Positions 36,035 through 62,694 of a DNA stretch of 64,000 bases are shown here, piece by piece. The notes under the pieces are model-generated. The model did no database searches, was not told the origin of the DNA, and saw only the letters and a program-made list of their open reading frames with translations. The position numbers and the translations under genes were made by a program. This DNA comes from an uncultured Alphaproteobacteria bacterium (lineage in GTDB: Bacteria > Pseudomonadota > Alphaproteobacteria > HIMB59): the NCBI GenBank assembly GCA_902530745.1, contig CACABO010000001.1, forward strand, positions 62,001 through 126,000, written 5' to 3'. Each line of letters starts with the position of its first letter. Within the stretch, counting starts at the first letter, position 1.

Positions 36035-37504
36035 ATGACAGCGCTAGAAACGTACGTTAAGGATAAAAAGAGACAAGACTATATAAAACAAGTTAGAAAA
36101 AAAATTGATAAATTAGGAATTGAGTACATTTATTATCAATTTATTTCTGTTACAGGTCGAATTGTAGGTAAAGGTGTTCCTGCAGATCATTGGGAGAGTG
36201 TAGCCAATAAAGGTTTCCAATTAGTTTATGGAGCTACTGCTAATCTATTTACAAATAGACATGGTGATTACATAGGTTATGGACCAGAGGCTCACGAATT
36301 AGTGGGTATACCTGACCCTGAAACATTTGTTCAAATCCCATGGGATAAAAGAATTGCCAGAGTTTTTTGTACTTGTTTTAGAAACAGGGAAGAAGAAAAA
36401 GATCCTGGTGGATATCTTACATCTGATTGCAGAGGTAACTTAAAAAGAGCCCACGAAGAATTTAAAAAGAAACACAAACTAGAATTACGAGCAGGAACAG
36501 AACCTGAAATGATGTGGTTAACAAAAAACGAAGATGGTTCACCGACTGGTTCAGGTTTCTCTAAGCCCTACTGCTATCACATTGATCAATTTGAATCATT
36601 AAGACCTGTTTACATGAAAGTAATTGAGTATTCACGTGCAATGGGTTTGGACATTATCCAAGGTGACCATGAGGACGCGCCTGGACAATTAGAACTAAAT
36701 TTCAACTACGATGATGTTGTTAGAAACGCTGACAGGCTATCAACTTACAGACAAATCTGTGCTCAAGTAGCAAGAGAATTTAATTTGATTGCTTGTTTTC
36801 TGAGTAAACCATTTGTTGGCGTGTCTGCTTCTGGGTGTCACACAAATATTTCACTCTGGAAGGGCGGAAAAGATGAGTTAATACCATGTGGTAATAAGAC
36901 TATCCCAGGTATGGAAAATGTATTTCATCACCGTAGGGGAGGTACAAATGTCTTTATGCCGGACGGAAAAGATAGAAGAATCCCTGGAAAAATAGGCCTT
37001 CAAGCAATTGGTGGTGTCATGGAACACCTTCCTGCTTTAACAGCCTTGGGTTCCTCAACTGTGAATTCATATAGAAGACTTTGGGATACAGGTTTTTGGG
37101 CTCCAGTTTATGCGGACTGGGGATATCAAAACAGAACCTGTGGTTTAAGGGTATCTGCCCCTGGTAGATTTGAATATCGATCAGTTGACTCAGCCCACAA
37201 CCCATACTTAATGGGAAGCGGTCTGTTGAAAGCATTCGACCATGGTATTTCAAAGAAAATGGATCCAGGCAAACCTGAACAACAAAATATGTATGAACAA
37301 ATGAAAGCTGGTAAGCAAGTTGAAAAATTACCAATGACTCTTGGTGAGGCATTAGATCGATTAGAAACCGACAAGGTAATACAAGATGCTCTACCAGGCG
37401 ACATGATGAAAGTGTTTATGGAGTATAAAAGAGATGAGTGGGAAGAATTTTTAGCAACTCCGACTCAATGGGATCTCGATAAATACCTAGATTGCTTACC
37501 ATAA
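36035..37504 (+). CDS. glnT: GlnT-like glutamine synthetase homologue
   Basis: 489 aa ligase of the glutamine synthetase superfamily, type seen as GlnT beside glxBCD in rhizobia. Catalytic-domain motifs are present: glutamate/metal residues in RAGTEPEMMWL, HEDAPGQLELNF, the ATP/His motif SKPFVGVSASGCHTNISLW, and GRFEYRSVDSAHNPYL. The N-terminal FDGSS loop that forms the ammonium site in true GlnA is not visible (here VYGATANLFTNRHGD), suggesting an amine other than ammonia is joined to glutamate. GGAGGAGGA precedes the ATG. Followed 19 bases later by glxB. Confidence 0.8.
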   Translation: MTALETYVKDKKRQDYIKQVRKKIDKLGIEYIYYQFISVTGRIVGKGVPADHWESVANKGFQLVYGATANLFTNRHGDYIGYGPEAHELVGIPDPETFVQIPWDKRIARVFCTCFRNREEEKDPGGYLTSDCRGNLKRAHEEFKKKHKLELRAGTEPEMMWLTKNEDGSPTGSGFSKPYCYHIDQFESLRPVYMKVIEYSRAMGLDIIQGDHEDAPGQLELNFNYDDVVRNADRLSTYRQICAQVAREFNLIACFLSKPFVGVSASGCHTNISLWKGGKDELIPCGNKTIPGMENVFHHRRGGTNVFMPDGKDRRIPGKIGLQAIGGVMEHLPALTALGSSTVNSYRRLWDTGFWAPVYADWGYQNRTCGLRVSAPGRFEYRSVDSAHNPYLMGSGLLKAFDHGISKKMDPGKPEQQNMYEQMKAGKQVEKLPMTLGEALDRLETDKVIQDALPGDMMKVFMEYKRDEWEEFLATPTQWDLDKYLDCLP

Positions 37505-37523: not shown

Positions 37524-38465
37524 ATGTGTGGAATAGCTGGAGTTATAAATAAAAAGAAGACAGTCAACGTCGGTGAACAAATGGGCCTTATGTTACAAGG
37601 TCTTAAACATAGGGGACCTGACTCAACAGGATATGCTATGTACGGAACACCTTTAAAAAAAGGCTTTGTAATGAGATTTAAAATATCTGAAAACGAGGCT
37701 GAAAAGGTAAATGCAACTGTCGACTCACCTGCTGATTTAAAAAATAGAAAAAATGCTGTCGACTCTATTTTAAAAAAACATGGTGCTAAAGTAACAAAAG
37801 AAAGCTCCAGCACCCCATACGCTTTCAGATATATATTTGATTTTAAAGGTGACCTCACAGATTTGGCTACTGAGATAGAAACAGTCGAAAAAACTGAAAT
37901 TTTATCAATTGGTAAGGGTCTTGAACTCATTAAAGACTTAGGCGATGCAAATACTGTATCCAATCAATATGGCCTTGATAAATTTATGGGTACACACGGT
38001 ATTGGCCATACAAGGATGGCTACCGAGTCTGATGTAGATATTAAATCTGCACACCCTTATTGGGCTTTCCCTTTTGAGGATGTGTCAGTTGTTCATAATG
38101 GTCAATTGACTAATTATTGGGGCAATCGAAGAGTACTTGAAAGAAAAGGTTACAGGTTTAATTCAAATTGTGACTCAGAAATAATTGCTGTCTATATAGC
38201 TGATAAGATGGCTAACGGCATTGAACTAGAAAAAGCTATGCATGATAGCTTGGATGAGCTCGATGGAGTTTTTACATATGTTGTAGCAACAAAGGATCAG
38301 TTAGGAATGGCAAAAGACCATATGGCCGCTAAGCCAATGGTAATCTACGAAAGTAAAGACATCGTAGCATGTGCATCAGAGGAAGTTGCTATTAGGAATA
38401 TATTTCCTCACGAAATTAAAACATATGACCCTTATGAAGCGGAGGTAAAAGTATGGCAGGCATAA
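37524..38465 (+). CDS. glxB: GlxB-like class II glutamine amidotransferase (second copy)
   Basis: 313 aa. MCGIAGVINKKK puts the nucleophile at Cys2, and KHRGPDSTGYAMYG, HGIGHTRMATESD and VVHNGQLTNYWGNRR complete the site. It is about 20 residues longer than MgsA (30825), with insertions after residue 50. First of the second split glutamate-synthase trio, overlapping glxC by 13 bases. With the GlnT-like ligase directly upstream, it may hydrolyse the gamma-glutamyl amide that ligase makes and pass the amine on. The family role is known, the substrate inferred. Confidence 0.83.
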   Translation: MCGIAGVINKKKTVNVGEQMGLMLQGLKHRGPDSTGYAMYGTPLKKGFVMRFKISENEAEKVNATVDSPADLKNRKNAVDSILKKHGAKVTKESSSTPYAFRYIFDFKGDLTDLATEIETVEKTEILSIGKGLELIKDLGDANTVSNQYGLDKFMGTHGIGHTRMATESDVDIKSAHPYWAFPFEDVSVVHNGQLTNYWGNRRVLERKGYRFNSNCDSEIIAVYIADKMANGIELEKAMHDSLDELDGVFTYVVATKDQLGMAKDHMAAKPMVIYESKDIVACASEEVAIRNIFPHEIKTYDPYEAEVKVWQA

Positions 38466-39289
38466 CAAAAAGAACTACTGCTTTTGATGATGAAAATTTA
38501 TCAGGTAGATCGCAAAAATTATATTTTGAAGTAACAGAAGAAGAAAATTATACCTACTACGGTAATCACGAAGTTGATTTTAATAAAAGAACCTCCATTG
38601 ATTGTGAAGGCATTGATGCACATGAGTTGAATCAAAAAATTAGAGATGCAATTCGAAAGGGATATGGGTCTATAGTTATTAAAAACCCTGGTGCAAAACA
38701 CTCACTTGGTGTGGGAATTCTAAATAAGTTAAACTTAATCTTTGAGGGTAGCTTAGGTTATTTTGGTATCGGTTGTATCGATGGACCAACAGTGAGAGTT
38801 AACGGAAGAGTTGGTTGGTCATGTGCTGAAAATATGATGTCAGGAAAAGTTGTTGTTGAAAACAATGCAGGATCTTGTTTTGGAGCTGCTCTTAGAGGTG
38901 GTGACCTTATAGTTAAAGGCGATGCAGGTGCAAGAACTGGAATTGATATGAAAGGTGGCACTATTCTTATTGGAGGAAATGCTGGAGCTTACACGGGATT
39001 TATGATGCAAAGAGGAAGAATTATCGTTTGTGGTGATGTAAACGCAAACATGGGTGACTCAATGTATGATGGAATCATTTTTGTAGGAGGAGAGCCTCAT
39101 TCGCTTGGAACAGACTGCGTACCTGGTGAAATGAATGAACACGAGGTTAGATGGCTAGAACAAAAAATTAAAAATGCTGAGATTGATTGCAAGGTCCCAG
39201 CTTCAAAATTTAAGAAATACGTTGCAGGAAGAATGCTCTGGAATTATGACAATCTAGAGCCAGCAGAAAAGAAAGGAATATTAGGCTAA
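38453..39289 (+). CDS. glxC: GlxC-like beta-helix subunit (second copy)
   Basis: 278 aa counterpart of the GXGXG domain of glutamate synthase, about 50 residues longer than MgsB owing to an N-terminal extension. Repeats seen include GSLGYFGIGCIDGPTVRVNG, CAENMMSGKVVVEN, GGDLIVKGDAGARTG, GGNAGAYTGFMMQRGRIIV and GDSMYDGIIFVGG. Overlaps glxB by 13 bases and glxD by one. Likely structural, joining amidotransferase and FMN subunits. Confidence 0.85.
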   Translation: MAGITKRTTAFDDENLSGRSQKLYFEVTEEENYTYYGNHEVDFNKRTSIDCEGIDAHELNQKIRDAIRKGYGSIVIKNPGAKHSLGVGILNKLNLIFEGSLGYFGIGCIDGPTVRVNGRVGWSCAENMMSGKVVVENNAGSCFGAALRGGDLIVKGDAGARTGIDMKGGTILIGGNAGAYTGFMMQRGRIIVCGDVNANMGDSMYDGIIFVGGEPHSLGTDCVPGEMNEHEVRWLEQKIKNAEIDCKVPASKFKKYVAGRMLWNYDNLEPAEKKGILG

Positions 39290-40623
39290 TGGCAAAACGT
39301 AATACACAACTATTAGGACAAAACTCAATTTTTACCCCCGAGGTAATGGACGACATTCATATCAAATCACAACTTGGTCGTTATCGTATGCGTGGTATGG
39401 CGTTAATGAAAAAAATTCCTCACTGGGATGACTTAGTTTTTTTACCAGGCACATTAACAAGATTTGTTATTGAAGGTTACAGAGAGAAGTGTCTAACAGA
39501 AACAATAATAGGTCCTAGAGCAAAAAATCCTATCAAACTTGATATTCCTGTTTACATAACAAGTATGAGTTTTGGTGCTCTTTCTTATGAAGCAAAAACT
39601 GCTTTAGCTAGAGGTTCATCAATGGCTGGAAGTGCAACTTGCTCTGGAGAAGGGGGTATGATACCTGATGAGAGAAGGTACTCTCACAAATGGTATTATC
39701 AATGTATTCAATCCAGGTATGGCTTCAACCCACACCATGCTCAATTAGCTGACGCCATTGAGGTTTTCATTGGCCAAGGTCAAAAAGTTGGGATGGGTGG
39801 TCACTTAATGGGCCAGAAAGTTACTGACCAAGTAGCTGAGATGAGATCGTTACCTGCTGGTATTGATCAAAGATCTCCTGCTAGACACCCAGACTGGATG
39901 GGACCGGACGATTTAGCTCTTAAGGTTCAAGAATTAAGAGAATTAACTGACAATCAAGTGCCAATTCAATTGAAGTTAGGTGCATCAAGAGTTTATGATG
40001 ATGTCAGAATGGCAGCAAAATGTGACCCTGACTCTATATTTTTAGACTCTATGGAAGGTTCAACAGCAGCTGGTCCACACATTGCAGCAGCTAATACTGG
40101 TATTCCTGGTATCGGTGCAATTAGAGAAGCAAGAAGAGCTTTGGACGATGTGGGAAAAACTGGTGAAATATCATTAGTATTTGCTGGAGGTATTAGAGAT
40201 GGAGCTGATATGGCTAAAGCCTTAGCTCTTGGGGCAGATGCTATTGCTATCGGTACAGCTGGATTAGTAGCACTGAACTGTAACAAAGATATTCCAGAAG
40301 CTGATTATGAAAAAGAAATGGGAGTGGAGGCAGGTTACTGCTATCACTGTCATACTGGTAGATGTCCAGTTGGTGTGGCCACACAGGATCCTGTTCTTAG
40401 AAGTAGATTAGACCCAACAGAGGCAGCAGAAAGAGTTTATAATTTGCTCAGCACTATGACTCTTGAGTGCCAAATGTTAGCAAGAGCATGTGGTAAGACA
40501 AACATTCACTCACTTGAGCCAGAAGATCTAGCTGCATTGACAATGGAGTCATCAGCAATGGCAAAAGTTCCATTAGCTGGTACAGATTTAACAGTAGGTG
40601 TAGATAACTACCACTCAATTTAG
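39289..40623 (+). CDS. glxD: GlxD-like FMN glutamate-synthase subunit with Fe-S motif (second copy)
   Basis: 444 aa paralogue of MgsC with the same FMN-barrel motifs (YITSMSFGALSYEAKTALAR, GSATCSGEGGMIPDE, VFIGQGQKVGMGGH, DSMEGSTAAGPH, FAGGIRDGADMAKALALGAD). Unlike MgsC it keeps a Cys cluster: Cys351, Cys354 and Cys359 in YCYHCHTGRCPVGVATQDP, the place of the iron-sulfur ligands in glutamate synthase, so this copy can probably do redox chemistry. Last enzyme gene of the unit; a Lys-rich small protein follows after 9 bases. Confidence 0.86.
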   Translation: MAKRNTQLLGQNSIFTPEVMDDIHIKSQLGRYRMRGMALMKKIPHWDDLVFLPGTLTRFVIEGYREKCLTETIIGPRAKNPIKLDIPVYITSMSFGALSYEAKTALARGSSMAGSATCSGEGGMIPDERRYSHKWYYQCIQSRYGFNPHHAQLADAIEVFIGQGQKVGMGGHLMGQKVTDQVAEMRSLPAGIDQRSPARHPDWMGPDDLALKVQELRELTDNQVPIQLKLGASRVYDDVRMAAKCDPDSIFLDSMEGSTAAGPHIAAANTGIPGIGAIREARRALDDVGKTGEISLVFAGGIRDGADMAKALALGADAIAIGTAGLVALNCNKDIPEADYEKEMGVEAGYCYHCHTGRCPVGVATQDPVLRSRLDPTEAAERVYNLLSTMTLECQMLARACGKTNIHSLEPEDLAALTMESSAMAKVPLAGTDLTVGVDNYHSI

Positions 40624-40632
40624 GAGAGTATT

Positions 40633-41109
40633 ATGGTTAAAAAGAAAGTTACAAAAAAGAAATCAACTTCTGCAAAATCAAAAAAACCTACTAAGTCAAA
40701 AGGTTATCAAGTTGTCGGCGGAGCTAAATTAAAAGATAAGGAAATTAAAACATCAAGAGAAAAAATGATTGGCCAGCATATTGGCTATCGTTATGATGTT
40801 AACTTAATTCCTGATTACAAGCACTTAACACCATTTCTTAAACAATATATCGAAATTATGGGTTGGGATGATTTAAATTGGTTAGAGGACATCCATATGG
40901 GTTTTGAAGGTGATACCCCTGCTGTGTTTGACAGAAATGCAAACGCTTGGATCACTTTGCCAAAGAAGATTAAACTTCCAAAAAACCAACAAGATAGAGA
41001 TATGTTAGCAAGAGAACTTTTAATTAAGTTTCAAATGTCACCTAATCATCCCTTGGTACAGTTAAAAAGAACATACGCTAAGGGTGAGAACTTTAAGTTA
41101 GTTGAGTAA
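40633..41109 (+). CDS. Unknown Lys-rich protein ending the glnT-glxBCD unit
   Basis: 158 aa, not recognised. The first 25 residues are Lys/Ser/Thr-rich (MVKKKVTKKKSTSAKSKKPT) and probably disordered. From about residue 45 there is an ordered region with many aromatic and acidic residues (IGYRYDVNLIPDYKHLTPFL, EIMGWDDLNWLEDIHMGFEG). No signal peptide or membrane segment. It begins 9 bases after glxD with a GGAGAG site and ends at a strong terminator, so it belongs to the operon. It may be an accessory or assembly subunit. No function can be assigned. Confidence 0.7.
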   Translation: MVKKKVTKKKSTSAKSKKPTKSKGYQVVGGAKLKDKEIKTSREKMIGQHIGYRYDVNLIPDYKHLTPFLKQYIEIMGWDDLNWLEDIHMGFEGDTPAVFDRNANAWITLPKKIKLPKNQQDRDMLARELLIKFQMSPNHPLVQLKRTYAKGENFKLVE

Positions 41110-41156: not shown

Positions 41157-41711
41157 TTAATCTTTAATTCTTATTAATTTAGATTTTTTCCAATTTGGAA
41201 TAAACTTTATAACATCTATGTCATTCCCCAAACCAGGATTAAAATTTTTATTATGCCAAAAAATATTTTCCCAATGTTCCTCATTTTTATCAAGAATAAA
41301 AGGAGAACATGACAATCTATAATTTGTAGAAAGGTGAATAAAATCTAAAATACATGAGCCGTCTTTAACTACTTTTTTTGAAATACTTGAATTTTTTGGA
41401 AAAGTAGCAAATAAAGAGTCTGAAAATTTATCTTTATCCATAAAATATTCAGAAGATAAAAATTTATTCATTTTATCAAATCTATCAGCAGGATCGTAAG
41501 TTCGTTTAAATGTGTGTTCAAATAGTTTTGTCGTGTTTACAGGATCATTTTCTGAAATTACAACAATAATTCTTAGAAGTTCATTTCCTTTTTTATCAAG
41601 CAATATTGGTGCCATAGATGAGTTTGGTCTACCATTTTGTGTTCTAAATGCCTGAATTCTAGATTGACATTGCCAATCAAGAAACTTTTCTTGTAAAACT
41701 TCAGGAGTCAT
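41157..41711 (-). CDS. Unknown protein co-transcribed with gmaS
   Basis: 184 aa, not recognised. No signal peptide, membrane segment or known nucleotide-binding loop. Starts MTPEVLQEKFLDWQCQSRIQ and is rich in Trp, Phe and Asn, with a conserved-looking core RLSCSPFILDKNEEHWENIF. It begins 7 bases after the gmaS stop and no other gene follows on this strand before the terminator, so it must be expressed with gmaS. This suggests a role in methylamine assimilation, possibly as a regulator or partner of GmaS, but nothing in the sequence shows the activity. Confidence 0.7.
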   Translation of the reverse strand: MTPEVLQEKFLDWQCQSRIQAFRTQNGRPNSSMAPILLDKKGNELLRIIVVISENDPVNTTKLFEHTFKRTYDPADRFDKMNKFLSSEYFMDKDKFSDSLFATFPKNSSISKKVVKDGSCILDFIHLSTNYRLSCSPFILDKNEEHWENIFWHNKNFNPGLGNDIDVIKFIPNWKKSKLIRIKD

Positions 41712-41718
41712 TAATAAT

Positions 41719-43026
41719 TTAACAATCTAGAGTTGTTTCTCTTTCCCAACTAGAAAGGTGTTTATTAAAAGTACCCCAATCTAGATTTTTTAATTTTACA
41801 TAGCTATTAACTAAATCATCACCAAAACCTGCTCTAATGATTTTTGATTTATCAAAATCACGTATTGCATCAAGAAGATTTAATGGCAATTTTTTTACTT
41901 TCCCAGCCTTGTGACCCTCTGTGTACATATTAATGTCTAATCGTTTTCCAGGGTCTCTTTTATTATTTAAACCGTCCAAACCTAAAAGTAAAATACCTGC
42001 TTGAAGTAAATAAGGATTTGTAGCTCCATCCATTAATCTTAATTCAAATCTTCCTGCTCCAGGAACTCTTACCATGTGTGTCCTGTTGTTACCTGCCCAA
42101 GTAATCGAGCTTGGCGACCAAGTTGCACCTGATGTTGTTACACTACCGTTAATTCTTTTATAGGAGTTTACAGTTGGGTTAAAAACAGCAGCCATTTTGT
42201 CCGCACTTTCCATTATTCCACCTAAGAAATTGTAACCAGTTTTGGATAAACCTAATTCATCTTTTTTATCTAAAAACATATTTTTTTTGCCAAATTTATC
42301 CCAAATAGAAATATGACAATGACAGCCATTACCAGTTAAATTTGTAAAAGGTTTGGGCATGAAAGTTGCCCTTAATAAATGTTTTTCTGCAATAGATTTT
42401 ACCATGAATTTAAAAAAAGCATGTCTATCTGCAGTTACTAGACAATCTGAGAAATCCCAATTCATTTCAAATTGCCCATTCGCATCCTCATGATCATTTT
42501 GGTAAGGTTTCCATCCTAGTGAAATCATTGAGTCACATATCTCAGTGATAACATCATATCTTCTCATTAAAGCAGAGGAGTCATAGCATGGTTTTGCTTG
42601 CGTATCCCTTTGATCTGATAAAGATGTCCCGTCTTCGTTGACCAAAAAGAATTCACATTCAACACCTGACTTCATATAAAGATTTTTTTTAGCTGCTTTT
42701 TCTATTTGTCTTTTTAAGGCTATTCTTGGCGAAGCTTCTACTGGTTTACCATCCATATACAAATCAGAGGCAACCCAAGCTATTTCTTTATTCCAAGGAA
42801 GCTGGATAACACTATCACCATCAGGCATACCAAACATATCAGAGTCAGCTGGAGACATATCAAGCCATGTTGCAAAACCTGCAAATCCAGCTCCTTCAGA
42901 TTGAATTTCATCTATAGCTGTTGCAGGTACAAGCTTTGATCTAAGCACCCCAAATAAATCTACAAAGCTTACAAAAAAATATTTGACACCATTTTTTTTA
43001 GCAAATTGGTGAAGGTTAGTTGCCAT
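41719..43026 (-). CDS. gmaS: Gamma-glutamylmethylamide synthetase GmaS
   Basis: 435 aa ATP-dependent ligase joining methylamine to glutamate. The N-terminus (KYFFVSFVDLFGVLRSKLVP) is characteristic of GmaS. The superfamily sites are present: GVECEFFLV, NDHEDANGQFEMNW, MPKPFTNLTGNGCHCHIS and GRFELRLMDGATNPYL. The ammonium-site FDGSS loop of true glutamine synthetase is replaced by FAGFATWLDMSPADSD. AGAGGAGA precedes the ATG. Divergent from the Amt-type channel across 233 bases, and forms an operon with the unknown 184 aa gene. It feeds MgsABC. Confidence 0.88.
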   Translation of the reverse strand: MATNLHQFAKKNGVKYFFVSFVDLFGVLRSKLVPATAIDEIQSEGAGFAGFATWLDMSPADSDMFGMPDGDSVIQLPWNKEIAWVASDLYMDGKPVEASPRIALKRQIEKAAKKNLYMKSGVECEFFLVNEDGTSLSDQRDTQAKPCYDSSALMRRYDVITEICDSMISLGWKPYQNDHEDANGQFEMNWDFSDCLVTADRHAFFKFMVKSIAEKHLLRATFMPKPFTNLTGNGCHCHISIWDKFGKKNMFLDKKDELGLSKTGYNFLGGIMESADKMAAVFNPTVNSYKRINGSVTTSGATWSPSSITWAGNNRTHMVRVPGAGRFELRLMDGATNPYLLQAGILLLGLDGLNNKRDPGKRLDINMYTEGHKAGKVKKLPLNLLDAIRDFDKSKIIRAGFGDDLVNSYVKLKNLDWGTFNKHLSSWERETTLDC

Positions 43027-44557: not shown

Positions 44558-44731
44558 ATGAATACATTTCCAGGACCTGAAAATAGTTGGGAAGGTGTGG
44601 ACGCTTATTTCACATATGCTAACAGTGAAGGTGCACTGATATTTTGGACCCTTTTTGTTATTGCTCTATGCGTGCTAGTCACTATGGCAACAGCAAGACA
44701 CGAGTCTGATACTGCAAAAAAAACAAAATAA
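44558..44731 (+). CDS. Small single-span membrane protein downstream of amt
   Basis: 57 aa ORF missing from the track. A soluble N-terminus MNTFPGPENSWEGVDAYFTY is followed by one hydrophobic segment (ALIFWTLFVIALCVLVTMAT) and a polar tail HESDTAKKTK. GGAAGGAG lies 6 bases before the ATG and the gene starts 20 bases after amt, ahead of the terminator at 44741, so it is co-transcribed. It may be a small partner of the channel. No known family recognised. Confidence 0.78.
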   Translation: MNTFPGPENSWEGVDAYFTYANSEGALIFWTLFVIALCVLVTMATARHESDTAKKTK

Positions 44732-44772: not shown

Positions 44773-44943
44773 ATGGATTACAACACTTCAAATCTCTTTT
44801 TTCAAAATCTCATTCAATCAATAGCTGAAAATAAACTAATAGCAGCAGTTATTTGGATTGCATTTATGATTTTTATTTTAAGAAAAATAGCAAAAAAAGA
44901 TAACGAATTGATTTTAAAAAAGAAATTCTCTAGACATAAATAA
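44773..44943 (+). CDS. Possible small single-span membrane protein
   Basis: 56 aa ORF not in the track, starting 6 bases after the terminator stem. One hydrophobic segment (KLIAAVIWIAFMIFILRKIA) sits between a polar N-terminus (MDYNTSNLFFQNLIQSIAEN) and a strongly basic tail (ILKKKFSRHK), a believable membrane topology. There is no good ribosome binding site, because the stem-loop occupies that position. It ends 9 bases before the amidotransferase gene start. Could be real and co-transcribed with the next gene; less sure than the two other small proteins. Confidence 0.5.
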   Translation: MDYNTSNLFFQNLIQSIAENKLIAAVIWIAFMIFILRKIAKKDNELILKKKFSRHK

Positions 44944-44952
44944 ACAGAAAAC

Positions 44953-45693
44953 TTGAATTTACTAATTATCAGTGGCATGGATAAAAACCATGATAATGAA
45001 CATGTTAAATCAAATTCTTCTTATCAATATAGTTTTTTTGAAGAAATTATTAAAAAGCAAAATCCTCTCTCAAATATCTCGGTTTATAAACCTTATATTG
45101 AGGATGTAAATAAATTTAGTTTTGAAGATTACGATGCCTTTTTATGGACCGGAGGTCTTGGTAATATTTATGATGACAATGATCACAATAAAAATCAGTT
45201 GAAGATATTTGATAGAATAGCAACTCTAGAAAGACCAATTTGGGGAAGTTGTTGGGGTCTTCAAGTGGCTGTAACAGCATTTGGAGGAAAAATATCAAGT
45301 TCTATGAGTCCAGAGTTTGGATATTCTGAAAAAATAAAAATTATAAAAAAACATTTTGTTTATAAAAATAAAAAGAATTTATTTACTGCCCCTGGTCATC
45401 ATTACGATAGTTTAGAAACTCTTCCCAAAGACTTTGATATAATTTCTGAGAATAATCATTCTATTCAATCTATATGTCATAAAAAACAAAACATATTTTG
45501 TACTCAATATCATCCAGAACTACCATACAACTATATTGGTAAATTAATGAGTTATTGGAAAAGAAATTATTTAAAGATTATGAGTGAAAGTGAATTTGAA
45601 GCATTATTAAATAAATTACAAAGTTTTGAAAATGAAGATCAATTTAACAGAGAACTTGAATTACTGAATTGGTTAGAAAATATTAAGTTGTGA
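44953..45693 (+). CDS. Class I glutamine amidotransferase (GATase1) protein
   Basis: 246 aa, start TTG at 44953. The catalytic triad of class I amidotransferases is visible: the nucleophile in GSCWGLQVAV (Cys near residue 98) and His/Glu in QYHPELPYN. No synthase domain is attached, so it is a stand-alone amidase or gamma-glutamyl hydrolase, resembling GMP synthase-type GATase proteins. It is on the same strand as, and upstream of, a glutamine-synthetase-like ligase (46016), with only a small convergent membrane gene between. That pairing recalls the PuuA/PuuD scheme, where one makes and the other cleaves a gamma-glutamyl amide. Substrate unknown. Confidence 0.78.
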   Translation: MNLLIISGMDKNHDNEHVKSNSSYQYSFFEEIIKKQNPLSNISVYKPYIEDVNKFSFEDYDAFLWTGGLGNIYDDNDHNKNQLKIFDRIATLERPIWGSCWGLQVAVTAFGGKISSSMSPEFGYSEKIKIIKKHFVYKNKKNLFTAPGHHYDSLETLPKDFDIISENNHSIQSICHKKQNIFCTQYHPELPYNYIGKLMSYWKRNYLKIMSESEFEALLNKLQSFENEDQFNRELELLNWLENIKL

Positions 45694-45939
45694 TTATTTT
45701 TTAGTAGCGATCATAATTAGTGATAAAAAAATCACTGCTAAAAGACCACAAAAAACTGCTGCAAAAAAAATAGTGGATATAATGAACATAAATACTTTTA
45801 TATCTGTAATCTTACTAAAAAAAAGTGGTGTCTGTAAAAACTGATCAACAGTGAGTATAAAAGTTAAAACAAAAAATCCCATCATAAAGCCTCTTTTGTA
45901 AAATTTAATCCATGATTTTTTAAAGTAATCAATATTCAT
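45694..45939 (-). CDS. Small two-span membrane protein, unknown
   Basis: 81 aa from the ATG at 45939; the track's 95 aa version uses a TTG at 45981. After a basic N-terminus (MNIDYFKKSWIKFYKRG) come two hydrophobic segments (MMGFFVLTFILTVDQFL and VFMFIISTIFFAAVFCGLLA, the latter continuing to the end), so two or three membrane helices. It sits alone on the minus strand between two plus-strand genes of the amidotransferase/ligase group. No family recognised. Confidence 0.55.
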   Translation of the reverse strand: MNIDYFKKSWIKFYKRGFMMGFFVLTFILTVDQFLQTPLFFSKITDIKVFMFIISTIFFAAVFCGLLAVIFLSLIMIATKK

Positions 45940-46015
45940 AATTTGAAGTAGTAATTTTATATTATGGTCATATAATTTCAATTCGATAAGATTTAAATTT
46001 TAGGAGGAAACTAAC

Positions 46016-47413
46016 TTGGGTCAATATTTTGAAAATTTTAAAGACGCCTTACCTGATGTAAAAAAAGTTAGAAAAATAAAAAAGGATTTAGAAAAAAAAG
46101 GCGTAAAATACATTTATTCTAATTGGATTGATTTTCTGGGTAGTCCAAAAACTAAGCCTATGCCTATATCTGATTTTGAGGATCTTTGTATGGGTAAAGG
46201 CCCTCAATTTGCTGTTCATTCTGTTTCCTTTGTTCCAGAATTAACTCCAGCAGATAATGATCAAATCCCTGTGCCAGATTTGGATAGTCTTGTTATATGT
46301 CCATGGGATAAAACATGTGCATGGGTTTTTGCAGATTTATATTGGAATGACAAACCTTACGATGTTTGCCCAAGAATGACGTTAAAAAAACAAATAAAGG
46401 AAAGCGCTAAATCTGACTTGAAATTTTTTGTTGGTATCGAACCTGAATTTTTCTTAATGAAGTGGGAGGGCGACAAACCAGTTAAAGCAATTGACAGAGA
46501 TCCTATAAATTTGAGAAGACAAGCTTTTGGGTATGACTCAGAGTACTCAATAGATGGAATGCATTTTTTAAAAGAAATAATAGATATTTTAAATAATGAT
46601 TTGAAATGGGATCTCCATGACGTCGTTGCTGAGGGCGCATATGGCCAGTATGAATTAGATTTCGGTTACACAGATATTTTAGGGATGGCTGATAGATTTG
46701 TATTTTTAAGAGTATTACTCAAGGAAGTTGCAAAAAAATATGGATATTTTGTATCATTTATGCCAAAGACAACTATTAGTGATTGGAGAGCTGGTGCTCA
46801 CATCAATCATAGTGCGGCATCAATTAAAAAGAAAAATAATAACATTTATAAGAATGGGAATAATTTCTCTGATAAAGCCTACAATGCTGTCGCTGGAATT
46901 TTAAAACACGGAGCAGCGATTACAGCTCTAGCGTGTCCAACTGTTAACTCATATAACGGATTTGTTCCTACAGTTGAGGGCCTTGATGGTGGCCGTCATA
47001 CATGGGCTCCTACACACATGACATACGGCAGTAATAATAGATCAGCTATGATAAGACTACCACAAAATAGATATTGTATAGAAAATAGGGCGTCTGATTT
47101 AACACAAAATCCTTATTTAACTTTTTCTTTATTAGCGGCAGCTGTTACAGAGGGTATCGACAAAAAAATGAAGCCCCCAAAACCAACTAATAAAAGTCTT
47201 TATGATTTGACCGAGAAAGAAAAAAAAGAGGTTACTACACTGCCAAGAAATTTATTAGAGGCAGTAGACGCTTTTGCTGCTGATGAATTAACTAAAAAAG
47301 TTTTTTCTGAGGCTATGATAAACAATTTTATTGGATATAAATATGATGAGTGGTCTAGATATCATACAACTACAACTGATTGGGAAATCAAAGAATATCT
47401 GAAGTTATTTTAA
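46016..47413 (+). CDS. Glutamine-synthetase-like gamma-glutamyl ligase, third homologue
   Basis: 465 aa, start TTG at 46016 with AGGAGG 8 bases upstream. Superfamily residues are kept but are more divergent than in GlnT or GmaS: FVGIEPEFFLM, GAYGQYELDFGYTD, FMPKTTISDWRAGAHINHS (the His before the Ser pattern) and NNRSAMIRLP...CIENRASDLTQNPYL. The FDGSS ammonium loop is absent. It probably joins glutamate to an amine, like GmaS or PuuA, but the amine is unknown. Followed with no gap by a MetX-like hydrolase, and preceded by a GATase1 gene. Confidence 0.75.
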   Translation: MGQYFENFKDALPDVKKVRKIKKDLEKKGVKYIYSNWIDFLGSPKTKPMPISDFEDLCMGKGPQFAVHSVSFVPELTPADNDQIPVPDLDSLVICPWDKTCAWVFADLYWNDKPYDVCPRMTLKKQIKESAKSDLKFFVGIEPEFFLMKWEGDKPVKAIDRDPINLRRQAFGYDSEYSIDGMHFLKEIIDILNNDLKWDLHDVVAEGAYGQYELDFGYTDILGMADRFVFLRVLLKEVAKKYGYFVSFMPKTTISDWRAGAHINHSAASIKKKNNNIYKNGNNFSDKAYNAVAGILKHGAAITALACPTVNSYNGFVPTVEGLDGGRHTWAPTHMTYGSNNRSAMIRLPQNRYCIENRASDLTQNPYLTFSLLAAAVTEGIDKKMKPPKPTNKSLYDLTEKEKKEVTTLPRNLLEAVDAFAADELTKKVFSEAMINNFIGYKYDEWSRYHTTTTDWEIKEYLKLF

Positions 47414-48430
47414 TTGATTAGTAAAGAGGAACTACATAAATACCAACTAAATAATTTCAAATTAAAATCAGGCGACATAATAGATTTACAATTAAATTAT
47501 TTAGCATTTGGTAAACTAAATTCTGACAAATCAAATGTAATTTTATTTCCTACTAGGTATGCTGGTACACATCTTGAGCAAGGATATCTGATTGGTAATA
47601 ATTTACCCATAGATCCAGATAAATATTTCATCATTATACCAAATATGTTTTGTAATGGTGTTTCATCCTCACCCAGTAATACAGAAAAACCCTTTAATGG
47701 ACCTAATTTTCCCTTAATAACAATATATGATAACGTGCAAGCACAATACACACTTCTAAAAGAAATATTTAACATAGAAAAAATTAAATTAGTTATAGGT
47801 TGGTCAATGGGAGGACAACAAGCATTTGAGTGGGCGTCATATTTTCCAGACATGGTAGAAAATATGATTTCTATGTGTGGTCATGCTAAAACTACAGAGC
47901 ATACATATGTATTTTTAGAAGGCGTATATGCTGCTTTGACTTCAGATCCAAACTGGAATTCTGGAAATTATGAAAAACAACCTCAAAATGGAAAAACAAC
48001 AATGGCAAGAGTATGGGCTGGATGGGCGCATGGGCAAGACTGGTTTAGGGAAAAAAAATATATCGACGATGGTTACAAAGATGCAAAAGAAGTTTTGGAT
48101 AAACTTTGGAATAGAATTTATTATCGTAAGGATGCAAATGATTTATTAGCGATGATAAGAACTTGGCAAGAGCACGACATTAGCAACAATAATAAATTTA
48201 ATAATCAATTTGATAAAGCTCTTAACTCTATTACTGCGCGATGTATTTTAATGCCAGGTAAAAATGATTTATACTTCCCCCCAGAGGATAATGAAATTGA
48301 ATTGAAGAATATTAAAAATGGTGAATTACGTATCATTCCTTCAAGCTACGGTCACTATGCTGGAGCAGGTAAGTCCAAAGATGATTTAAATTTTGTTAAT
48401 GATGCTATAAAAGAAATATTGGTTACTTAA
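47414..48430 (+). CDS. MetX-like alpha/beta hydrolase
   Basis: 338 aa of the homoserine O-acetyltransferase-like alpha/beta-hydrolase family. Nucleophile elbow GWSMGGQQAFEWA (Ser near residue 139), acid in MPGKNDLYFPPEDN and His in SSYGHYAGAG give a full triad. The N-terminal region VILFPTRYAGTHLEQGY is typical of the family's non-MetX members rather than genuine homoserine acetyltransferases. The start is TTG directly after the stop of the GS-like ligase gene, so translation is coupled. It may act on the same unknown compound. Overlaps the convergent tyrS by 8 bases. Confidence 0.7.
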   Translation: MISKEELHKYQLNNFKLKSGDIIDLQLNYLAFGKLNSDKSNVILFPTRYAGTHLEQGYLIGNNLPIDPDKYFIIIPNMFCNGVSSSPSNTEKPFNGPNFPLITIYDNVQAQYTLLKEIFNIEKIKLVIGWSMGGQQAFEWASYFPDMVENMISMCGHAKTTEHTYVFLEGVYAALTSDPNWNSGNYEKQPQNGKTTMARVWAGWAHGQDWFREKKYIDDGYKDAKEVLDKLWNRIYYRKDANDLLAMIRTWQEHDISNNNKFNNQFDKALNSITARCILMPGKNDLYFPPEDNEIELKNIKNGELRIIPSSYGHYAGAGKSKDDLNFVNDAIKEILVT

Positions 48431-61767: not shown

Positions 61768-62694
61768 ATGAATTATTATTTAGCACCAATGATGGGTTAC
61801 ACAGACTGCTATTTTAGAAGTTTAGTGGAAAACATTTATGGAAATAGTGTAACTACCTTTTCTGAAATGATAGTGGATAAAGCAATCATCCACAATGAGA
61901 CTAAAACAATAACCAAGCATTTTTTAAAAAATAATAAAAGCGCCATTCAAATTGCAGGCTCAGATCCTGAAGAAATTAAAAGAGCAATAAATATTTTAAA
62001 TAAAGTAGATATTATTAAACATGTAAATTTTAATTTAGGGTGCCCAAGTTCTAGAGTCCAAGAAAATATGCTTGGTTTAGCTTTAACCCAAAAGTATGAC
62101 TTAGTAAAAAAATGTTTATATGAATTGATCAAATATAATAAAGATGTATCGGTAAAATGTAGACTTGGTTTAGGTATGAATGAGGATAAGAGTTATATTT
62201 TTGATTATCTTAAATTGTTTAATAAAATAGGAATTAAAAAAGTATTTATACATTGTAGAAATGGTGTTTTGAACTTAGATACCAAAAAAAATAGAACAAT
62301 TCCAAAAATTAATTACAATTTATTTTTAGAGTGTTGTGATCAATTTCCTGAAATGGAACTTATTCCTAATGGTGAGGTTAATGATTTAGAAACCTTTAAA
62401 TTTTTTCAGTCAAAAAATATTACTCAATTTATGATTGGTAGGCAATTTGCGAAAGACGCCTTTTTTTTAGAAAAATTAGATCTTGAGAATGTCAAAAAGA
62501 AGACAGCTTCAATAATTAATACAATAAATGAATTAGAGCATTACAAATATTTAAATATTAATTTATTAAAAAAAAGTATATTCACTGCGCTTAGTAACAT
62601 ATCAAATTCCAAAAAAGTAAAAAAAGAAATCTCAATTATTAATAACTATAGTGGCTTACTAAATTATTTTGAGAGGAATGCCATTTGGAGTTAG
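61768..62694 (+). CDS. tRNA-dihydrouridine synthase (DusA-like)
   Basis: 308 aa FMN enzyme reducing uridines in tRNA. APMMGYTDCYFRSLV opens the barrel, NFNLGCPSSRVQENMLG holds the catalytic Cys of the GCPS motif, VSVKCRLGLGMNED and the DusA-type KKNRTIPKINYNLF then LIPNGEVNDLE follow. The position that usually reads GAC after the GCPS loop is GLA, which does not affect the catalytic Cys. Closest in layout to DusA. Its stop lies inside the start region of glnE. Confidence 0.85.
   Translation: MNYYLAPMMGYTDCYFRSLVENIYGNSVTTFSEMIVDKAIIHNETKTITKHFLKNNKSAIQIAGSDPEEIKRAINILNKVDIIKHVNFNLGCPSSRVQENMLGLALTQKYDLVKKCLYELIKYNKDVSVKCRLGLGMNEDKSYIFDYLKLFNKIGIKKVFIHCRNGVLNLDTKKNRTIPKINYNLFLECCDQFPEMELIPNGEVNDLETFKFFQSKNITQFMIGRQFAKDAFFLEKLDLENVKKKTASIINTINELEHYKYLNINLLKKSIFTALSNISNSKKVKKEISIINNYSGLLNYFERNAIWS

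Follow-up and report, generated by a model that had tools for sequence, protein, structure and literature searches.

A conserved ligase-hydrolase gene pair with an unexpected active-site change in HIMB59 Alphaproteobacteria

Introduction

Which reaction is served by a glutamine synthetase (GS)-like ligase whose gene is followed without a gap by that of an alpha/beta hydrolase is the question raised by a locus at positions 44953-48430 of a 64,000-nucleotide stretch of DNA (the window) from an uncultured alphaproteobacterium of the GTDB lineage HIMB59 (GenBank assembly GCA_902530745.1, contig CACABO010000001.1, forward-strand positions 62,001 to 126,000). The host genome comprises 1.28 Mb in 27 contigs and is ~90% complete. 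A preliminary description of the window had reported a stand-alone class I glutamine amidotransferase-type gene (GATase), a divergent GS homologue without the FDGSS loop (LIG) and the hydrolase (HYD), and had likened the arrangement to the Puu putrescine pathway, perhaps acting on a third amine. All three genes were recovered on the forward strand, the first base of HYD being the base directly after the LIG stop codon. LIG itself begins with a TTG codon, which is preceded by a strong AGGAGG sequence. The GATase does precede the ligase on the same strand as described, but the two are separated by 322 bp holding an opposite-strand open reading frame (ORF) for a membrane protein. The analysis reported here shows that the ligase-hydrolase module LIG-HYD is real, conserved and uncharacterised, and that the active site of the ligase has changed in an unexpected way. 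The features of the locus are as follows.

44953-45693, forward strand: GATase, stand-alone class I GATase-fold cysteine hydrolase (PF00117, 3.9e-19; C100, H187 and E189 kept)
45694-45981, reverse strand: small conserved membrane protein of 95 residues (ORF with orthologues in relatives)
46016-47413, forward strand: LIG, GS-superfamily ATP-dependent amide ligase with a predicted remodelled acid pocket (PF00120, 8e-82; tree; AlphaFold2 (AF2) model)
46784-46789, forward strand: LIG codons W257-R258, replacing the glutamate-binding x-Gly (GmaS Gly231, MtGS Gly246; alignment)
46958-46960, forward strand: LIG codon G315, replacing the glutamate-binding Arg (GmaS Arg288, MtGS Arg303; alignment)
47414-48430, forward strand: HYD, PRK07581/MekB-type alpha/beta hydrolase with the triad S131-D285-H314 (NCBIfam PRK07581; aligned triad)

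Conservation of the ligase-hydrolase pair

The preliminary description had made its reading depend on the recurrence of these genes in other genomes, and the ligase-hydrolase pair proved to be strongly conserved. Among 150 relatives, LIG was found in 50 and HYD in 50, with 49 genomes carrying both and a single genome each carrying LIG alone or HYD alone (Fisher p 2e-37, which is not a true probability since the genomes are related). Genomes of the window's family comprised 39 with both genes, none with LIG only, one with HYD only and 12 with neither, and those of the sister family 10, one, none and 87, respectively. HYD was likewise present in 9/9 genomes containing a member of the LIG clade vs 40/376 others in a class-wide sample. 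Both genes are kept in one genome (G041) though they lie 32 kb apart and in another (G407) on distant parts of the same contig, while GATase, membrane ORF, LIG and HYD are jointly absent from a third (G038, locus L097), where AmtB borders TyrS. The 95-residue membrane ORF, for which a Pfam search returned no match, also adjoins HYD in most sister-family loci. At one further locus (L096, genome G039) stop codons and frameshifts break HYD, GATase and GmaS while LIG is open, due either to assembly errors or to decay.

Family placement and active site of the ligase

LIG scored below the cut-offs of the GlnA (TIGR00653, 273 bits, cut-off 429), GmaS (TIGR03105, 356.6 bits, cut-off 469.6) and PuuA (NF045547, 181 bits, cut-off 650) models, and the FDGSS ammonium-site loop of GlnA, which contains Asp50, reads FAVHS in LIG. 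The phylogeny of the ligase, proposed earlier as a check, placed the LIG clade on the GmaS/GlnT side of the tree, outside the true glutamine synthetases (GlnA), PuuA and GmaS, with PuuA grouping apart from it (support 98/96). Judged by sequence, LIG is therefore neither GlnA, GmaS nor PuuA. The metal, ATP/phosphate and catalytic residues are nonetheless invariant (E142, E144, E206, E213, H262, R342, R347, E356 and R358), including the metal ligands, ATP/phosphate arginines and catalytic glutamate that mark an amide ligase of the GS superfamily, and LIG is 83-99% identical within the window's family.

In crystal structures of GmaS, a glutamate mimic contacts Glu124, Glu179, Gly231, His235, Arg288 and Arg327, and methylamine is deprotonated by Asp177 (PMC7948447); the matching glutamate-binding set of an archaeal GS (MtGS) includes Gly246 and Arg303 (PMC10799026). 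Alignment of LIG to these enzymes showed that the glutamate-site Gly and Arg are replaced by Arg258, which follows Trp257, and by Gly315, respectively, while the remaining glutamate-site positions are retained. This signature (W-R together with Gly) was found in 132/132 readable loci of the LIG clade, many of them redundant, and the glutamate Arg was retained in 14/14 comparison ligases, among them PuuA, GmaS, the cyanobacterial partner of HYD described below and the sister-type ligases L142, L113 and L040. The position of GmaS Asp177 is occupied by Val204, so that all three of the GmaS residues Gly231, Arg288 and Asp177 differ in LIG (R258, G315 and V204). An AF2 model of LIG, from the input of which three plasmid rows were left out, has GmaS as its nearest fold (TM 0.84, 30% identity). 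LIG thus resembles GmaS (7CQL, 9QUR; TIGR03105) in its fold, in its metal and ATP residues, in the base Glu186 and in the absence of the Asp50 loop, but differs from it at these three positions, and a bona fide GmaS is encoded separately at 41719-43026.

Because two glutamate-binding residues are replaced, the label 'gamma-glutamyl ligase' given to LIG in the preliminary description is doubtful. With the ATP and metal residues intact and the acid pocket changed, LIG very likely has ATP-dependent ligase activity towards an amine, with the acid either held differently or a different one.

The hydrolase and its contexts

HYD exceeded the cut-off of the NCBIfam PRK07581 model (426.9 bits, cut-off 332) and contains the Ser-Asp-His triad; against the MetX equivalog model it scored 152 bits, far from the cut-off of 500. 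Its nearest solved relatives, 5E4Y and 5D6O, were deposited as homoserine O-acetyltransferases and correspond to MekB and a Corynebacterium (C. glutamicum) acetyl-ester hydrolase, with which HYD shares the triad and membership of PRK07581. We know of no PRK07581 member described together with a GS-like ligase, and a literature search for the LIG-HYD cluster found nothing.

Relatives of HYD without a ligase occur in operons for aliphatic amidase, formamidase and urea/amide transport, and other ligase-free HYDs lie directly after a membrane desaturase-type oxygenase (weakly GntB-like, 63 bits, cut-off 380) or after a Rieske oxygenase and a 2-hydroxyacid dehydrogenase. HYD would therefore be able to act alone, its substrate being an amide-type or oxidised compound. 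Adjacent to HYD are GS-like ligases of three kinds, namely the LIG clade, the type found at L142 and L143, and a GmaS/GlnT-type ligase whose glutamate pocket is intact and which follows a HYD-type hydrolase in the cyanobacteria Leptolyngbya and Nostoc. Such repeated partnership is hard to explain unless the product of HYD feeds the ligase or the product of the ligase feeds HYD. In a HYD tree calculated with no outgroup, the midpoint drawing placed the HYD of the window with the amidase-linked HYDs, as a swap of partner might, but the LIG-linked HYDs also fell on one side of a branch (92/84). As a separate observation, the pair of a desaturase-family oxygenase and a PRK07581 hydrolase, with no ligase seen beside it, is itself recurrent (L177-L179, L182, L184-L187, L190, L191 and L203).

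Gene partners in relatives

In the sister family the gene order is Rieske oxygenase (GbcA-like), lactoylglutathione-lyase-like protein (GloA), EutQ-type cupin, LIG, HYD, membrane ORF and AmtB. The same order is found on a plasmid of Leisingera thetidis, with an SsuA/NMT1-type ABC importer inserted before HYD, and plasmid CP081100.1 (strain M382) carries LIG-HYD with Lrp, an SsuA/NMT1-type importer and guanidino-related genes. In other alphaproteobacteria, LIG-HYD is either directly preceded by a D-2-hydroxyacid dehydrogenase and a second kind of Rieske oxygenase, which is LigXa/phthalate-dioxygenase-like, or lies divergently from a GbcA-like Rieske oxygenase, GloA and Lrp. Beyond the window's and sister families, the pair is thus found in further families of alphaproteobacteria as well as on plasmids of Rhodobacterales, usually in the company of one or more of these partners. 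The earlier statement that no oxidase or dehydrogenase accompanies the ligase thus holds for the window's lineage but not for its relatives. No Rieske oxygenase was found in the window's genome, where the sole Rieske domain belongs to a 176-residue ORF of bc1-subunit size, and this lack of an oxidase reflects loss or separate evolution. No cupin was found in the window's family except on one contig (G015:C33, locus L085), where a sister-type LIG-HYD-cupin-GloA-Rieske cassette in a bin of the window's genus is probably contamination.

An arginase/agmatinase-family gene lies beside the Rieske-LIG-HYD operon in six sister-family loci (L078, L080, L086, L087, L088 and L089), arginase genes adjoin LIG on CP081100.1 and a urea carboxylase is near L142. 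The weakly GntB-like desaturase beside other HYDs belongs to the same theme, but since arginase-family genes are absent from the genome of the window itself, a guanidino link is not claimed. Some loci have carnitine/betaine genes nearby (TauD_TmpA, M24, ALDH), which were variable and judged to be separate, and the homarine pathway, considered for the marine context and the Rieske genes, was not supported, homarine having no free amine.

GATase, which had been described as the partner of the ligase, proved to be so in the window's family only and is absent next to LIG in other lineages. Its Cys100, His187 and Glu189 do not vary among nine orthologues, and it evolves faster than LIG (46-62% vs 83-97% identity to more distant orthologues). 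The AF2 model of GATase (pLDDT 93) has Arabidopsis gamma-glutamyl peptidase 1 as its nearest fold, just ahead of the GATase subunits of GMP synthase, a likeness that at 15% identity is a lead only. GATase may serve to cleave a gamma-glutamyl amide or to provide ammonia.

Proposed route and alternatives

We tentatively favour a reading, to which we give somewhat less than an even chance, in which LIG and HYD catalyse successive steps of a route for scavenging a nitrogen compound ('release and trap'). An oxygenase (Rieske or desaturase-type di-iron) would oxidise the parent compound in the full cassettes of the relatives, HYD would use its Ser-Asp-His triad to cleave an amide- or ester-like bond, yielding a free amine or acid, and LIG would make an acyl phosphate at the expense of ATP and couple the amine to a carboxylate, thereby fixing the nitrogen. 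LIG, having no Asp50 loop, would take an amine and not ammonium, and its carboxylate partner would probably be bound unlike L-glutamate. The window's lineage would possess a shortened form, consisting of LIG, HYD, the small membrane protein and GATase, with no Rieske oxygenase. The order of these steps, their chemistry and the substrate are what we infer from the observed genes, co-occurrence, residue changes and partners. This scheme is favoured because HYD dispenses with a ligase where it is associated with oxygenases or amidases, because it also pairs with GmaS-type ligases and because LIG-HYD is kept in the window's lineage without a Rieske oxygenase. Several points weigh against it: the order of reactions is not fixed by gene order; confidence in the AF2 model of LIG is low in just those segments that form the pocket (250-257 and 315-327), which leaves the pocket geometry undecided; R258 might substitute for the lost Arg, with glutamate still usable; and the gamma-glutamyl-peptidase-like fold modelled for GATase would agree with a gamma-glutamyl product being made in the window's lineage.

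The chief rival, which we consider somewhat unlikely, is a mask-oxidise-unmask route: LIG would acylate an amine, a Rieske oxygenase would hydroxylate the masked amine and HYD would unmask it, by analogy with proposals for the degradation of aniline, naphthylamine and isopropylamine. In the NpaA1/AtdA1 pathways a dioxygenase, which is of the Rieske type, is combined with a GS-like ligase and a GAT-like hydrolase, and LIG-HYD is accompanied by Rieske oxygenases in the sister family, Leisingera and several other families. However, the window's genome keeps the pair without such an oxygenase, HYD is found with oxygenases without LIG, and HYD is unlike the GAT-like hydrolases of the aniline and naphthylamine pathways. 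While the cassettes of the relatives resemble those for aniline and 1-naphthylamine (AtdA1A2/NpaA1A2 plus dioxygenase) in joining a GS-like ligase, a hydrolase and an oxygenase, their hydrolase is of the alpha/beta type, their oxygenase is GbcA- or LigXa-like, and GloA, cupin and 2-hydroxyacid dehydrogenase are additional. The three components of such a cassette, GS-like ligase, GAT-like hydrolase and Rieske oxygenase, were not found together in a single genome: that of the window has no Rieske oxygenase, and the relatives, which possess one, lack GATase at the locus.

The Puu analogy of the preliminary description was not supported, given the model scores, the position of LIG outside the PuuA clade and the two glutamate-site replacements, and its modified form is unlikely: LIG would be a gamma-glutamyl ligase for a third amine, holding glutamate in an unusual way, with GATase as the gamma-glutamyl hydrolase in the window's family. 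The origin of LIG on the GmaS/GlnT side of the GS superfamily, the presence of GATase beside it in that family and the nearest fold of GATase would agree with such a route. Against it stand the clade-wide replacement of two glutamate-binding positions, of which PuuA retains the Arg, the large shortfall of LIG against the PuuA model and the absence of GATase next to LIG in other lineages; furthermore, no PuuB-type oxidase or PuuC-type dehydrogenase was found at the locus or among the conserved partners of LIG-HYD. The locus shares with Puu (PuuA/PuuD) a GS-like ligase with a hydrolase nearby, but HYD is not a cysteine hydrolase and GATase is nearer to PF00117 than to C26. It is improbable that HYD is instead a MetX-like acyltransferase, loading an acyl group onto an alcohol or amine from the LIG product in a biosynthetic pair; its membership of the MetX superfamily (152 bits to MetX) fits this, but that score is far under the cut-off, the protein is closest to the MekB/acetyl-ester hydrolase type and its relatives lie in amide-catabolism operons. 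Highly improbable is a catalytically dead or regulatory LIG, for which the departure of glutamate-site and amine-site residues from known enzymes might speak, since metal, ATP and phosphate residues are all invariant and the protein is well conserved in the family.

More broadly, we consider it possible, though not quite an even bet, that the LIG clade no longer uses glutamate as its acid and that, together with oxygenases and a hydrolase of the MetX type, it serves an as yet undescribed route for a dissolved organic nitrogen compound in abundant ocean bacteria. HIMB59/AEGEAN-169 bacteria are widespread in the oligotrophic surface ocean, and conservation of the pair in very small genomes would suggest that some nitrogen source is important to these organisms. 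Should the acid used by LIG not be glutamate, the GS fold would have a wider chemistry than is known at present, and genes now called glutamine synthetase or type III glutamate-ammonia ligase would be misnamed; the W-R plus Gly-for-Arg signature offers a simple test for LIG-type proteins.

Other genes of the window and host genome

The description of LIG as a third ligase applies only locally, as six GS-family genes are present in the host genome, one of those in the window being GmaS.

41719-43026, reverse strand: GmaS (612 bits to 7CQL; TIGR03105, 639.7 bits, cut-off 469.6)

A conserved protein of 184 residues (41157-41711, reverse strand), with no Pfam or NCBIfam match, adjoins GmaS in the window's and sister families. 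At 36035-37504 (forward strand) a very divergent GS-like protein is encoded (tree branch 3.4, glutamate Arg retained), neighboured by a second glutamate-synthase-like glxB/C/D set (37524-40623), near which lies a Lys-rich ORF without a Pfam match (40633-41109). Two small membrane-peptide-like ORFs (44558-44731 and 44773-44943, forward strand) come directly after AmtB. Elsewhere in the host genome, a PuuA-type ligase (G000:C8:24205-25224) groups with E. coli PuuA in the tree (100/98), and any Puu-like route would therefore be there.

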